From positions 1 to 32,005 of the forward strand of contig CAIUCS010000170.1 in the NCBI GenBank assembly GCA_903897715.1: a stretch of DNA of 32,005 nucleotides, written 5' to 3'. The position numbers were made by a program, and so were the translations under genes. This stretch comes from an uncultured Synechococcales cyanobacterium (lineage in GTDB: Bacteria > Cyanobacteriota > Cyanobacteriia > CAIUCS01). The notes below the pieces were generated by a model that had not been told where the DNA came from, searched no databases, and saw only the letters and a list, made by a program, of their open reading frames with translations. Positions 24,308 through 31,949 of the stretch are shown here, piece by piece (position 1 is the stretch's first letter; the number at the start of each line of letters is the position of its first letter).

Positions 24308-25939
24308 TCAATGAATTCCCTTAATCAGTCCAGGAATTTCTGGGGCACGGATAAAGACCAGTGACGGTGAGTGAACCGTTGCCTCTGAAATCATTATTGC
24401 CCTATAGGATTGAGGCAATGTTAGCTTATTTAAGCTATTATCCAGTATCTGGGTTATGGCAATGGTTGTGGAGTCATAAACTTTCGTCAGTAGCTTGGGA
24501 TAAAAGCCAATGCCAATGATAGGAATTAGCAGACAGGCAATGATAAACACTTCCCTGGGTTCAGCATCGACCAAGGCTTCATGGGATGTAAGGTGTTGAT
24601 TTTCAGATCCATAAAAAATTTCCCGCAGCATTGACAGTAAATAGATGGGAGTCAGAACGACCCCAATTGCTGCCAAGGTAATAACTATAATCTTAAAGGT
24701 AAGGGTATAGGTATCACTTATGGCAAAACCAACAAATACCATCAATTCCGCAACAAACCCACTCATACCAGGTAATGCCATGGATGCCAGAGAGCAGGCT
24801 GTAAACATTGCAAATATTTTAGGCATACTTCGACCGATCCCCCCCATTTCTTCCAGGATGAGAGTATGGGTACGGTCATAGGTAGCACCCACCAGAAAAA
24901 ACAAACTAGCTCCAATTAACCCATGGGATACCATTTGTAATACTGAACCACTTAACCCTAAATCAGTAAATGAACCCAGTCCAATTAAAACAAAACCCAT
25001 GTGGGAAATGGAAGAATAGGCAATTTTCCGTTTTAAATTTCGTTGAGCAAAGGAAGTTAGGGCTGCATAGATAATATTCACCACTCCCAACATAACTAAA
25101 ATGGGAGCAAAATAGACATGGGCATCGGGAAGCATCCCCACATTCATTCTAACTAAGGCATACCCCCCCATCTTCAACAAAATACCAGCTAAAAGCATGT
25201 GGACTGGAGCGGTGGCTTCTCCATGGGCATCGGGTAGCCAAGTATGCAAAGGAATAATGGGTAGTTTGACGGCATAGGCAATGAATAACCCCCCATAGAC
25301 CAATAGTTGAAATGAAAGGGTATAGTTTTTGGCTGCCAAAGTATGCATATCAAAACTAACATTATCCCCATAGAAAGCCATGGCTAAAGCGGCGACTAAA
25401 ATAAATAAAGACCCGATGGCAGTGTAAAGGATGAATTTGGTGGCAGCATATAACCGTTTGTAGCCACCCCAAATCGATAGCAGTAAATAAACCGGAATTA
25501 GTTCTAATTCCCATACCAGGAAAAATAACAACATATCTTGAACGGCGAAGACAGCAATTTGTCCACCGTACATGGCCAACATGAGGAAATAAAACAGTTT
25601 TGGCTTTAAGGTAACGGGCCAAGCCGCCAGAATGGCTAAGGTAGTGATGAAACCAGTCAACAAGATCAATGGCATGGACAAACCATCCGCAGCCACAGAC
25701 CATTTTAGGTCTAATTGAGGGAGCCAGGTATAACTTTCAACCAATTGTAAATTGGAATTATTGAAATCATACCCGGTATAAAAGGCATATACCAGAATCA
25801 CAAAATCAATTAGACCAATTATTAAGGCATACCAGCGTACTGTGCGTCCGTCCTTATCAGGGATGACTGGGATCAAAAAAGAAGCCAGTACGGGGAACAA
25901 AATACTGATGGTCAGCCACGGAAAATGTGTAGTATCCAT
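24308..25939 (-). CDS. ndhD: NAD(P)H-quinone oxidoreductase subunit 4 (NdhD)
   Basis: Membrane-arm proton-pumping subunit of cyanobacterial NDH-1, in thylakoids, used in respiration and cyclic electron flow. 543 aa with about 14 transmembrane helices. NdhD/NuoM features: [18 protein letters not shown] with the key Glu, [28 protein letters not shown], and [18 protein letters not shown]. Placement directly after ndhF suggests the D1/F1 pair of the respiratory/cyclic complex rather than the CO2-uptake D3/D4 sets, which are linked to cup genes not present here. Confidence 0.96.
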
Positions 25940-26072
25940 TGGTGATCCGTTGAATTAGGGAAGACTAGGGAAAAGAAGTGAAGAAGTCCAAAAGGGCTAT
26001 TCTATTAGAGATAAGAACCCATTGAAATAAGAACGAACCATCCTAGGGACGGGATGGTTTCTCAGTCTCATC

Positions 26073-28148
26073 TTATCCTGAGACTCCAGACAGTACTACT
26101 AAACCAAGAACTGCCCCGAATACAATTAAGGCGTAAAATTGAGCACGACCATTTTCAAAATATTTTAATGCTTCTCCAGTGACTAATGTAATCAACCCTG
26201 TAAAGTTGACAACCCCATCTACAACTTTGGAATCAGTTTCCAATGCAGCCCGAGCAAGACGACGACTACCTTGGATGAATAACCGATCGTTGATGTCATC
26301 TAGGTACCATTTATTTCGAGAAAATCCATATAATGCTGGAAAACGATTGGCGATCGCCCCTGGATCAATCCTATGACTGAGGTACATCAGGAATGCAAGG
26401 CTAATGCCAATAAGGGCAATTCCCACTGAACTACCCCCCATTATTAAAAACTCATTCCAGTTGAATTCTTCTCCATGGGTAACCCCAAGATGGAGTGACC
26501 CAGTTGCAACCGGGGGATGGATGAATTCTGTAAAATAATTCGCAAAAGGGGTTCCCACCAGCCCAATTAAGACAGAGGGGAATGCCAGAATCAACAATGG
26601 CAATGTCATCGTAATGGGGGATTCGTGGGGATGCCCGTGGTGACCATGGGCATGATCATCCCCTGGGTTTAGGGATAATTCATCGGCGTGCATTGCCCCT
26701 GGTCCAACGCTGATGGAAAAACCATGGATGGCTTCCCGCTTGAGGAATTGACGTAGGGACTGGTCGTTCCCTCGGAAGTCCCCCTCAAAGGTGGTAAAGT
26801 ACATCCGAAACATGTAAAAAGCAGTGATGCCAGCAGTCAACCAGCACACTAACCAAAGTGCCGGCTGGGCAGCAAATGCAGAACCTAAAATTTCATCTTT
26901 TGACCAAAATCCAGCGAAGGGTGGGATACCACAAATGGCTAGGGTGCCAATCAAAAAAGTAGTAGCGGTGATTGGCATATATTTTCGTAAGCCTCCCATT
27001 AACCGCATATCTTGCGCCAGAACAGGGTCATGACCAACCACTCCTTCCATGCCGTGGATAACGGAACCGGATCCAAGGAATAACATTGCCTTGAAGTAGG
27101 CATGGGTCATCAAATGAAATAACCCGGCTCCATAGGCTCCAACTCCCATTGCCATTGTCATATACCCTAACTGGGAAATGGTTGAATAGGCTAACCCTTT
27201 TTTGATGTCATTTTGAGTAATGGCAATACTGGCTCCCAAAAAGGCTGTGAAAGCGCCAGTCCAAGCAATGACATTGGTGACTGCTGGTAAATGCTCAAAT
27301 ACTGGAAACATCCGCGCAATTAAAAATACCCCAGCGGCAACCATTGTGGCAGCGTGGATGAGAGCGGAAATGGGAGTGGGTCCTTCCATTGCGTCGGGCA
27401 ACCACACATGGAGGGGGAATTGGGCAGACTTAGCCATGGGACCTAGAAATACCAGGATACCCATCAATACCGCCAATCCTGTGCCAATGGCTCCAGATTC
27501 AAGTAAGTTAGAAAGGCGATCGCCAATGACAGTGAAATCAAAACTCCCGGTTGACCAATACAGACCCAAAATACCCAATAATAGACCAAAGTCACCTACA
27601 CGATTTGTGACAAATGCTTTTTGACACGCATCGGCAGCGGCTTTCCGGTCATACCAAAAACCCACCAGCAGGTAGGAACACATCCCCACTAGTTCCCAGA
27701 AAATATAAATCTGTACCAAATTAGGACTGATGACCAAACCTAACATGGAGGAACTGAAAAGGCTCAAGTAAGCATAGAAGCGAACATAGCCAGGATCATG
27801 TGCCATATACCCGTCGGTATAGATCATGACCAGCAAAGCAACAGTCGTAACAATCACCAACATTAAAGCTGAAAGGTGATCAATGGTGTAGCCCATGGTG
27901 AGTCGGAAGTCCCCAGCCTTTGCCCACTCAATGACTTGCAAAAATGAACTATGCCCCTGGATTTGAGTCCACAAAAGAATGATGGACAATACCATAGAAA
28001 CTCCCAATAGGGAAATAACCAGGATGGCACTTCCTTTTCGAAAATTGGCGGCTGTTTTATCGAATGAAATTAGCCCGAGCCCCAGTATCAATGATCCAAC
28101 TAGAGGAAATACTGGAACCAGCCAGGCATATTGATAGATTGCTTCCAT
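26073..28148 (-). CDS. ndhF: NAD(P)H-quinone oxidoreductase subunit 5 (NdhF)
   Basis: Largest membrane subunit of NDH-1, 691 aa, distal proton pump with a long C-terminal lateral helix. Conserved stretches: WELVGMCSYLLVGFW, HVWLPDAMEGPTPISALIHAATMVAAG, and KKGLAYSTISQLGYMTMAMG. An about 15-residue His-rich segment (HAHGHHGHPHE) lies near residues 490-505 before the last helices. It precedes ndhD by 133 bp on the same strand, so the two are probably one transcript. The ATG at 28148 has no good ribosome-binding site. Two hairpins lie about 100 bp upstream. Confidence 0.96.
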   Translation of the reverse strand: MEAIYQYAWLVPVFPLVGSLILGLGLISFDKTAANFRKGSAILVISLLGVSMVLSIILLWTQIQGHSSFLQVIEWAKAGDFRLTMGYTIDHLSALMLVIVTTVALLVMIYTDGYMAHDPGYVRFYAYLSLFSSSMLGLVISPNLVQIYIFWELVGMCSYLLVGFWYDRKAAADACQKAFVTNRVGDFGLLLGILGLYWSTGSFDFTVIGDRLSNLLESGAIGTGLAVLMGILVFLGPMAKSAQFPLHVWLPDAMEGPTPISALIHAATMVAAGVFLIARMFPVFEHLPAVTNVIAWTGAFTAFLGASIAITQNDIKKGLAYSTISQLGYMTMAMGVGAYGAGLFHLMTHAYFKAMLFLGSGSVIHGMEGVVGHDPVLAQDMRLMGGLRKYMPITATTFLIGTLAICGIPPFAGFWSKDEILGSAFAAQPALWLVCWLTAGITAFYMFRMYFTTFEGDFRGNDQSLRQFLKREAIHGFSISVGPGAMHADELSLNPGDDHAHGHHGHPHESPITMTLPLLILAFPSVLIGLVGTPFANYFTEFIHPPVATGSLHLGVTHGEEFNWNEFLIMGGSSVGIALIGISLAFLMYLSHRIDPGAIANRFPALYGFSRNKWYLDDINDRLFIQGSRRLARAALETDSKVVDGVVNFTGLITLVTGEALKYFENGRAQFYALIVFGAVLGLVVLSGVSG

Positions 28149-28643: not shown

Positions 28644-28877
28644 TCAGCAGCAATGGGTAAACCAGCTTTTAATGTCTGCTTCAGAAATTTTCTGAAAGGC
28701 GGTTTCAAGAGCTTTGGGTAGAGCTTTATACGTCCGTGCTCCCAACGTCTTGAGCATGGTCTTTAGCTTTGACCAAAAGTTCTCAATTGGCGAGAAGTCT
28801 GGCGAATAAGGCGGCAAATATACCAGACGTGCCCCGACATCCTCGATCCACGCCTGAATTGCGTCATCCTTGATTTG
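28644..28877 (-). pseudogene. IS630-family transposase, C-terminal fragment
   Basis: About 77 residues remain from a DDE transposase of the IS630/Tc1-mariner superfamily. The frame carries the hallmark ARLVYLPPYSPDFSPIENFW, with the final catalytic Glu, then WSKLKTMLK and the end SWFTHCC. The N-terminal half with the two catalytic aspartates is gone; the frame meets a stop at 28878. It is flanked by the decayed helicase gene at 28904, so insertion and deletion here probably helped to inactivate that locus. No intact copy of the element is in the window. Confidence 0.9.
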
Positions 28878-28903: not shown

Positions 28904-30970
28904 TTACTTTCCAATCATGTGCAATGCCTCGATCCAGATTTTGAGTTCTTGTTCAGCCAGGTATTTATCAGTCAACTCCTGTTCCTGGTGGGCGATGTAG
29001 GTATTCCGAAAATCATTGATGCGGATAACGGTTTCCAAAAACTTACGTCCGCCCTGAAATCTCAACTGAGTCTGCAAGGCTTCAAATACCCCCCTATTTT
29101 CTTGGTGTTATTGAGAGCCTAGTCTAAGCACGATCGCAGCAAGCCGATCAGCGATAGTCCATATCGGGGAAGATAGAAATCGTTGTTCTTGGTACGTCAT
29201 TAATATCAATAACTTCGATGGGCAGTCCTTCCTGAGCCAGTTCTTGAGCATATAAACTGGCAAACGCAGGATGTTCGATTACTGTTACCAGTTCGTTGGC
29301 TTGACCGGGGGGAGTCATGCGGCGCAAGCCCGGACTCAGGGTTTGTTCTGGCAGAATGTTGGCTTTAGAACTGTAGGGACGCAGGGGCACGATCGTCGTC
29401 ACGTTTCGCACGTCCCAACCTTCCCGCGGCATCAGCACCGAGACAATACAAAAATAGGGACTGGCGTTGCTATCGAGTTCGCGGCTAAGTTTTCGCAATG
29501 CCTTAAGATCTTCGTCGCTGATGGCTTTTTCGTCTTCGACAAATTCATAGCAAGCCTCTTTCCCCCGTCCGACTTTCTTCAACTTGCCCTTAAGGTTAGT
29601 GTGCAGGTTGATGGTTTTGCCATTGAGTTGCTCAAACAGGGGGTCGGTGTTGAAGCGTTGGGTGATTTGATCGGCAGCATCCGTGTCATCACACATGATG
29701 AACAGCAGGGGCTTTTTGTCGCTGGTTTCCCACTCGGCTTTGCTGGCTTTCCAGCGGTAACCCAGAAGCAAATGCTGCTCCCAGCGGTAGGCGGCGTTGT
29801 CGTCGGTTTGTTCTACTAACATGCGGCTGGCTTGTCCAATTAGCGGAGTTTTGACAATTCCAGCATCCACCGCTTCCCCTAGGGGCGTATCGCAGACAAT
29901 AGGTTTGAACAGCAGTCCCTTATTGTCTTTGGGTGTGGCAGAAAAATCGAGTTGCGCCACCAGCTTGCAACCACTCCGAGACAGGATGGTTTCATGCAGG
30001 GTGCGGATGGCTTCGTTCCAGGCAGAGCCAGCGTCCCAAACGTGGTGGGCTTCGTCGTTGAGTACCATGACTCGGCGATGGGCGGTGATTCTATCTCGCA
30101 ATGCGGCTCCCGTATCGAGAGCTTTTGACTGAGACACTACGGGACCCATCCAGGGATAACTGTCGTCCTCGGCGTTCTTTTTGCGTTTGGCAGTGTCGTA
30201 AAGGCGATGAATATTCGTGAGATAGAGCGTCCCCCCGTGGCGGCACCGCTAGCTTCATCTTGCAACACCACCGATAGGTTCCAATCGCCCCGCCATTCTG
30301 GGGGAATCAGCGGATCCTCGTCAAACACGCGCCCATTGCCAAAGTCCTCTTTGAGGCGTTCCTACACGGTGAGGTTGGGGGCAATCACCACAAAATGCCG
30401 CGCCATCTCCGAGTCGGATTCCCGCAGGGCGTGGAAGTAGCTCCAAACGATGCAGAGGCTCATAACTTTGGTTTTACCTGCCCCCGTTGCCAGTTTGAAG
30501 GCATAGGGACTCTAGGCATCTTCGTCTTCGGTGATACCCAATGCCTGTAATTCGGCATTTGCACCGCCAAACTCGGCAATGATTTGGGATAGGCACTCAA
30601 TCTGCCGCACTTCTTTGAGATAAATCAGGGTTTCCACTGCCTCTCGCTGGCAAAAGTAGTAACGAAACTCAAATTCTTCACCACCCACCCCTGCCCCCTC
30701 CTTGGAGGGGAAAGTTAGACGGTGGGCGCGGTTAAACCAGTGGTTGAGGAGTTGAATCGTGGTGTCACTGGCTCCGATGTAGAAGGCTTCTCGCCATTCC
30801 CGCACTGCTGCCCGTAGGTTATTAATCGCCTCGATCGGAGAAGCTCTGCGTCCTTGTTTGATTACAGCAGGATCACCCGATTTTTCTGCCCGAACACGAT
30901 GGGCATTGGGTTCTTGCCAGGGGGCAAAGAGGGGTTCGAGAACGGTGGGATTGAGGGTGGCGGAGGGCAT
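28904..30970 (-). pseudogene. Broken DEAD/DEAH (type III restriction-like) helicase
   Basis: One gene in several frames. Start ATG 30970, first piece 30512-30970 ends at TAG. The same frame continues past it with SPYAFKLATGAGKTK (Walker A), then a second TAG at 30362-30364, then a frameshift in a G6 run at 30231-30236. The frame 29148-30149 carries LNDEAHHVWD (DEAH box) and MPREGWDVRNVT, and ends at TGA 29148. A large part is then missing, and a last fragment (28904-29107) has FRNTYIAHQEQELTD, which I take as the same gene's C-terminus. The motif VI loop reads LSPGLRR where GRGLRR is expected. Family: superfamily 2 restriction/defence helicase. Clearly non-functional as read. Confidence 0.85.
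30695..30710. repeat. Small palindrome inside the helicase pseudogene
   Basis: CCCCTCC and GGAGGGG separated by TT, within the C-rich block CCACCCCTGCCCCC. It encodes an in-frame insertion (about SKEGAGVGG) before EFEFRYYF that looks foreign to the protein. It is like the GC-rich palindromic repeats scattered in cyanobacterial genomes, and may be such a unit inserted into the gene. Confidence 0.45.
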
Positions 30971-30971
30971 T

Positions 30972-31169
30972 TTAGAAGAACAGGGTTTGAAATAGATCTG
31001 CTACGGGTAAGCTAAAGCCAGGAATCACCTTTTCCCCATCCCAAAGATCGGGAGAACGTTTATTACCACTTTTCATGGTGAAGGCAGTACTAGAATCTTG
31101 AGGCAAGGTTATAAACTCTTGATCTGTCCACACTTTTTTCTCTGCAATGACTTTAGTGGCAGTAGGCAT
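30972..31169 (-). pseudogene. Uma2-family remnant with internal deletion
   Basis: 65 residues. The beginning (KVWTDQEFITLPQD) resembles an Uma2-family start and the end (VIPGFSLPVADLFQ) the typical Uma2 C-terminus; the roughly 120 residues between, including the PD-(D/E)XK-like core, appear deleted. AGGAG seven bases before the ATG at 31169 is a good ribosome-binding site. It ends one base before the helicase start codon and begins 47 bp after the xisHI stop, so it was the middle gene of a compact operon. The alternative is a small intact gene of unknown family. Confidence 0.55.
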
Positions 31170-31216: not shown

Positions 31217-31949
31217 TCAAGCCGTTGCATAGTCAGAATATTCGCGCATTTTGGGATAGTGGAAGCCTACCACAATTTCTTTTTTGGAGATGCCCATTTC
31301 TTCAAGATCTTTATCCAGTTCAATATCAGTATTATTTTCCTGTACCCAGATCTTGCCGTCTTTTATATCAAAGTGAAAGATTGAATAATTTATGCGTTTT
31401 TCTCCTTCCCAGCCGACTCGAAGCAATAGATAATGATCCCGATCTGAATCAATAATGAGTTGGGTTTCGACATCTTTTTCTCGCCACGTATCAACATATT
31501 TTTCTAGGAACTGACGAATACTTTGGCGGTAGTGTTCGTCTATCCATAATTGAATCTCCTTGTTTTCTAGATTATATACAAGTAGTTTTACGGGGTAGGC
31601 CTGTAAAACTTTTTGAATCAACGCTTCGGTGAAAAAAGAGTCGTATACGAGTTTGGGGACAGCTAAATAGAGGATACGATCAGGATGTCTTTCTGTCAGG
31701 GCAACTTTATAGCAAAAATATTGTCCTAGAGCAGCGTAGAAGTCGGTGATTTGAGAGACATTGCTGAAGGTTTTGATTTCAACAGCGATTTTTCTCACCC
31801 CTTTCTGCTCCGATCAGACTTTCTAAGCCTAGGTCGATCTGGACACTAATCTTCCCGATCGCAATCGACAGTGGATCGTGGGAAATCACCCATCCATCCA
31901 AAATTAACGTTTCTTTGACCCAGTTGTGATAGCGATCTCTAGCGGACAT
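31217..31949 (-). pseudogene. Fused xisH-xisI, frameshifted in XisH N-terminus
   Basis: XisH and XisI are small cyanobacterial proteins named for control of fdxN-element excision; XisH has a PD-(D/E)XK nuclease-like fold. Here one frame (31217-31798, 193 aa) runs from XisH (AVEIKTF, ALGQYFCYK, ERILYLAV-like ILYLAVPKLVYDSFF) straight into XisI (VETQLIIDSDRDHYLLL, GKIWVQENNTDIELD, VVGFHYPKMREY). The usual XisH stop and XisI Met are absent. The XisH N-terminus (ATG 31949, ISHDPLSIAIGKI) is in another frame; removing one A from the A5 run at 31789-31793 (minus strand) joins the two. A GTG at 31798 could start the short form, but it would lack part of the nuclease core. Confidence 0.85.

Follow-up and report, generated by a model that had tools for sequence, protein, structure and literature searches.

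The xisH and xisI genes at one end of a contig (C170) from a cyanobacterial draft genome of 2.86 Mb in 207 contigs are, with a probability of about 90%, a recently inactivated pair inside a decaying mod-xisH-xisI-Uma2-res operon of a type III-like restriction-modification (R-M) system. The window analysed here is the entire contig, 32,005 bp. The xisHI locus lies approximately 55 bp from the contig end and all its parts are on the minus strand (Table 1). The order of a type III-like operon is still present, with the tail of mod at the contig edge and the remnants of res downstream of xisHI. We found no intact xisHI elsewhere in this genome; a further match is limited to a XisI fragment at the edge of contig C157. 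This fragment (C157:3-155, G000) is distant, 39% identical, and cut by the contig end; C157 also has a gene whose tandem repeats are tetratricopeptide-like.

Table 1. Features of the xisHI locus in the window, and gene content of the corresponding mod/res slot at other loci.
Feature	Position or loci	Strand	Basis
mod (DNA methyltransferase) gene, last codons, cut by contig end	31950..32005	-	DNA alignment to L008
xisH 5' part, XisH residues 1-~50, including presumed catalytic Asp39	31799..31949	-	PF08814 positions 1-53; alignment to L008/L009
Open frame of 193 aa from a GTG start, running from the C-terminal part of XisH, which has Glu-x-Lys, into XisI	31217..31798	-	ORF listing; PF08814 53-133 and PF08869 5-110 in one ORF
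Original xisI ATG, retained, now out of frame with XisI	31545..31547	-	Alignment to intact relatives
Fusion point: 2-bp TA absent from GATAGAC[TA]GAACAC; xisH TAG stop gone, xisI moved into xisH frame	31537..31538	-	Alignment
Uma2 remnant with two in-frame deletions inside it, leaving 65 aa out of about 193	30972..31169	-	tblastn with Uma2 of L207 and L210
res pseudogene, type III-like R-M: 2 TAG stops, 2 frameshifts, residues ~617-1067 (~450 codons) deleted	28907..30970	-	NF046055 matches to remnants; ResIII match to intact L008 res
Slot content: PIN with small partner	L161, L200		
Slot content: MNT with HepT or HEPN	L167, L198, L210		
Slot content: Uma2	L162, L193, L201, L202, L207, L210, L211		
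Slot content: XisI alone	L193, L201, L212		
Slot content: nothing	L165, L166, L169		

The XisH family (PF08814) matches the locus in two frames, at 31949-31791 (profile positions 1-53) and 31828-31553 (profile positions 42-133), with scores of 103.9 and 56.3 bits that both exceed the gathering cut-off of 25. The N-terminal part of XisH is thus in a frame of its own, as the earlier note on this DNA had read it. An uninterrupted XisH frame of approximately 138 aa is absent from the locus, the frame being broken near codon 49. XisI (PF08869) is matched at full length (31537-31223, profile positions 5-110) with 127.5 bits, above its gathering score. This match shares its open frame with the C-terminal part of XisH, no stop intervening at the junction, and XisI has no in-frame ATG or GTG to start from. 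A third of XisH is absent from the 193-aa product. We therefore agree with the earlier note that the XisH C-terminus runs into XisI without stop or start.

XisH presumably has a PD-(D/E)XK nuclease fold, and we take the Asp and the Glu-x-Lys to be its catalytic motif. If so, the break in xisH separates the two: Asp39 lies upstream and Glu-x-Lys downstream of it, and the presumed site is not found on one polypeptide.

We found relatives by scanning 84,980 species genomes. The closest, L008, comes from a metagenome-assembled genome (MAG) of a Spirulina sp. (93% amino acid identity), and the next, L009, from a Leptolyngbyaceae MAG (80%). In both, xisH and xisI are the two adjacent genes that one would normally expect, separate and overlapping end to end. 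The overlap is ATGGATAGACTAGAA, in which xisH ends Trp-Ile-Asp-TAG and xisI begins Met-Asp-Arg-Leu-Glu in a different frame. Aligned with L008, the xisHI of the window differs in length only by two 2-bp gaps. The first, at 31537/31538, reads GATAGAC--GAACAC in the window, TA being lost from the shared xisH stop and xisI codon 4. The second is at about 31804/31805, in a purine run that leaves its exact position ambiguous by 1-2 bases.

The earlier note had proposed a single-base break, an extra A in the A5 run (T5/A5) at 31789-31793. That the XisH frame is broken stands, while the lesion is a 2-bp loss approximately 11 bases before the A5 run, upstream of it, and the loss at 31537/31538, which is what produces the apparent fusion, had been missed. 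An extra A can be ruled out, since the intact L009 also has A5 and the alignment puts the loss upstream. Removing one A from the run restores the frame on paper, but the resulting protein would fall one residue short of the intact relatives compared.

Substitutions relative to L008 are mostly synonymous. We counted 8 synonymous and 0 nonsynonymous changes in xisH before the break, 16 and 10 after it, and 19 and 7 in xisI, where a synonymous share of about 20-22% would be expected. Most of the divergence thus predates the lesions, and the break is recent. The same counts also speak to some degree against a pseudogene, as the mostly synonymous changes in XisI and in the XisH tail would allow for some retained use of XisI. 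One could go further and propose that the 193-aa product is kept as an antidote or regulator of the XisI type without the nuclease. The low ratio of nonsynonymous to synonymous changes in xisI would agree with this, as would the occurrence of XisI without XisH in the same mod/res slot (L193, L201, L212) and at other loci. We give this proposal only a slim chance, because the GTG start has a purine-rich stretch directly against it and is not conserved, and because the divergence largely predates the breaks, so that the ratio says little about the present.

We suggest the following course of events for an inactivated pair. In the intact ancestor, xisI would have started inside the end of xisH in a different frame, so that the frames would merge in one step through any +1 or -2 indel lying after the xisI start and before the xisH stop. 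The alignment shows that a 2-bp deletion inside this normal overlap was the actual merger. It also shows another 2-bp deletion near codon 49 that splits xisH between the presumed Asp and Glu-x-Lys, so that a full XisH can no longer be made. XisH activity was probably lost. XisI would at most be translated from a poor GTG start, joined to the C-terminal end of a truncated XisH, and the fusion would have no function of its own. What the earlier note took as a possible fused nuclease-partner protein is by this account no evolved fusion, only a by-product of a deletion in the normal overlap.

We looked for genuine fusions in 386 cyanobacterial genomes and among the best relatives from the 84,980 species genomes. 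XisI is present in 104 of the 386 genomes. Around the 150 best XisI matches of these genomes there was no frame of fusion length, open frames being 111-155 aa. When the read-through fused sequence was used as query, only interrupted frames ranked below the window itself. In a set of 148 distinct XisI genes, xisI has the usual frame relative to xisH in 122, the same frame in 11 and the third frame in 2; the remaining 13 have no xisH nearby. These XisI samples favour the best-scoring copies and do not amount to a census. The junction is open in only two of the 11 same-frame cases, the window and L021. A conserved uninterrupted fused frame was not found in more than one genome of these surveys, and the search for fused forms that the earlier note had proposed likewise left L008 and L009 as separate pairs, with no intact fused homologue. 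This is the homologue pattern that the earlier note had named, alongside reads with the extra A, as the sign of a one-off pseudogene.

Several candidates for natural fusions were rejected. In L010-L017, L019, L022 and L023, XisH and XisI are separated by stops or frame changes, and the xisH of L021 is interrupted by a TGA nonsense codon. L021 (L021:3001-3744, a Prochloraceae MAG) is an independent instance of the same kind of accident as in the window, a merger of the xisH and xisI frames; the R-M locus around it is of type I and includes Fic/Doc and PIN genes. In a sample biased by the fused query, L010-L017, L019, L022, L023, L030, L069 and L077 have a frameshifted xisH beside a readable xisI.

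A functional XisHI fusion protein, in which the break in xisH would stem from a sequencing error or a programmed frameshift, is in our judgement very improbable. The 193-aa frame is open, XisI scores well and the substitutions are mostly synonymous, but there are two separate 2-bp gaps instead of a homopolymer slip at an A5 run that intact L009 shares, the surveys gave no intact fused homologue, and the adjoining res and Uma2 are wrecked. The 2-bp loss in the overlap together with the wrecked R-M cluster indicates that what looks like a fused protein is wreckage and no new enzyme. As a fused protein the xisHI of the window would be of no importance: it is most probably a young pseudogene, its fusion the predictable outcome of the overlap. 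In most xisHI pairs one small indel in the overlap would fuse both proteins, yet intact fusions were not found in our surveys. Their absence from these surveys fits a requirement for two separate chains.

Decay, which the earlier note had offered as the alternative, is well supported by the two gaps in xisHI and the wrecked state of res and Uma2. A DDE_3 transposase fragment of 57 aa (window 28644-28817, minus strand) adjoins the broken res gene. An assembly or sequencing artefact in an intact pair might be considered, given a draft in 207 contigs and a locus so close to a contig end. We regard it as highly unlikely, since lesions of several types extend over res, Uma2 and xisHI, and the ORF listing shows two long genes at 24308-28148 that run without a stop for 543 and 691 codons; such intact genes beside wrecked ones argue against a general assembly error. 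Judged from the sequence, the lesions are operon decay and not base-calling noise. We found no second strain with the allele of the window, so that fixation of the inactivated pair can only be presumed.

The main interest lies in the exchangeable mod/res slot, a by-product of following up the fusion, as it reveals a place in which pairs of this kind travel. In L008, xisHI has a DNA methyltransferase on one side (PADLOC MTase_III, E = 2e-219) and, on the other, a ResIII protein that weakly resembles BPTD_3080 restriction enzymes. The same order recurs in L009, L045, L164, L163, L207, L208, L209 and L210, and mod-xisH-xisI-res is complete in L008, L009, L045 and L164. The slot between mod and res of this cyanobacterial type III-like operon is variable (L008:340-6052; L009; L045; L161-L164; L193-L212). 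Its contents were surveyed at loci fetched with the res protein alone; besides those in Table 1 they include DUF2283 and Y1-type transposase genes. In L193, L201, L212 and L208 (L208:6396-6767) the slot holds a XisI that lacks XisH or is a second copy in tandem, and XisH without XisI was not seen there among the loci examined. The xisHI of L021 adjoins Fic/Doc and PIN; HsdS and a ResIII protein are nearby. Around 30 high-scoring XisI loci, 11 of 99 flanking ORFs belong to Uma2, more than to any other family, and a few to ParE and Methylase_S. These neighbours show no dominant R-M link, which makes the R-M slot a sub-lineage trait and not a general one.

The variable slot suggests, by genomic context, a toxin-antitoxin-like cargo role for xisHI. 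We tentatively speculate that XisHI is a mobile nuclease-antidote (toxin-antitoxin-like) module and not primarily an excision factor. As exchangeable mod/res cargo, interchangeable with PIN, HEPN-MNT and Uma2, it would guard the operon or act on its failure; we hold this as possible but rather doubtful. If true, the two proteins would have to be translated separately, which would account for one-step fusions being seen only in wrecks. We found no paper making the case for XisH as a toxin-antitoxin protein or for xisHI as cargo between mod and res.

XisH and XisI first became known as factors needed when heterocysts excise the fdxN element; what they do in strains that lack heterocysts has been described as still undisclosed (PMC2674450). 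For such strains the operon gives a testable hint: exchangeable R-M cargo beside or instead of toxin-antitoxin genes. Solved homologues are single proteins (2INB and 2OKF for XisH; 3D7Q, 2NLV, 2NWV and 2NVM for XisI). With the fdxN-element excision controlling factors of Anabaena PCC 7120 (PF08814/PF08869) the window shares both families above cut-off, the order xisH-xisI and a trace of the usual overlap. It differs by two breaks in the reading frame, by the joining of the pair into a single frame, and by its place in an R-M operon instead of a nif element. PADLOC models gave no match to XisH or XisI. Toxin-antitoxin modules of R-M loci (PIN/VapC-type, HEPN-MNT, Fic/Doc) resemble XisH/XisI in gene context alone, PIN or HEPN-MNT genes occupying the same mod/res slot elsewhere. 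A further close likeness is to the intact operon of L008, L009, L045, L164 and L208, with the same gene order and up to 93% protein identity; there xisH and xisI are separate and readable, whereas the copy in the window is decayed and accompanied by an extra Uma2 remnant, Uma2 being likewise present in L207 and L210.
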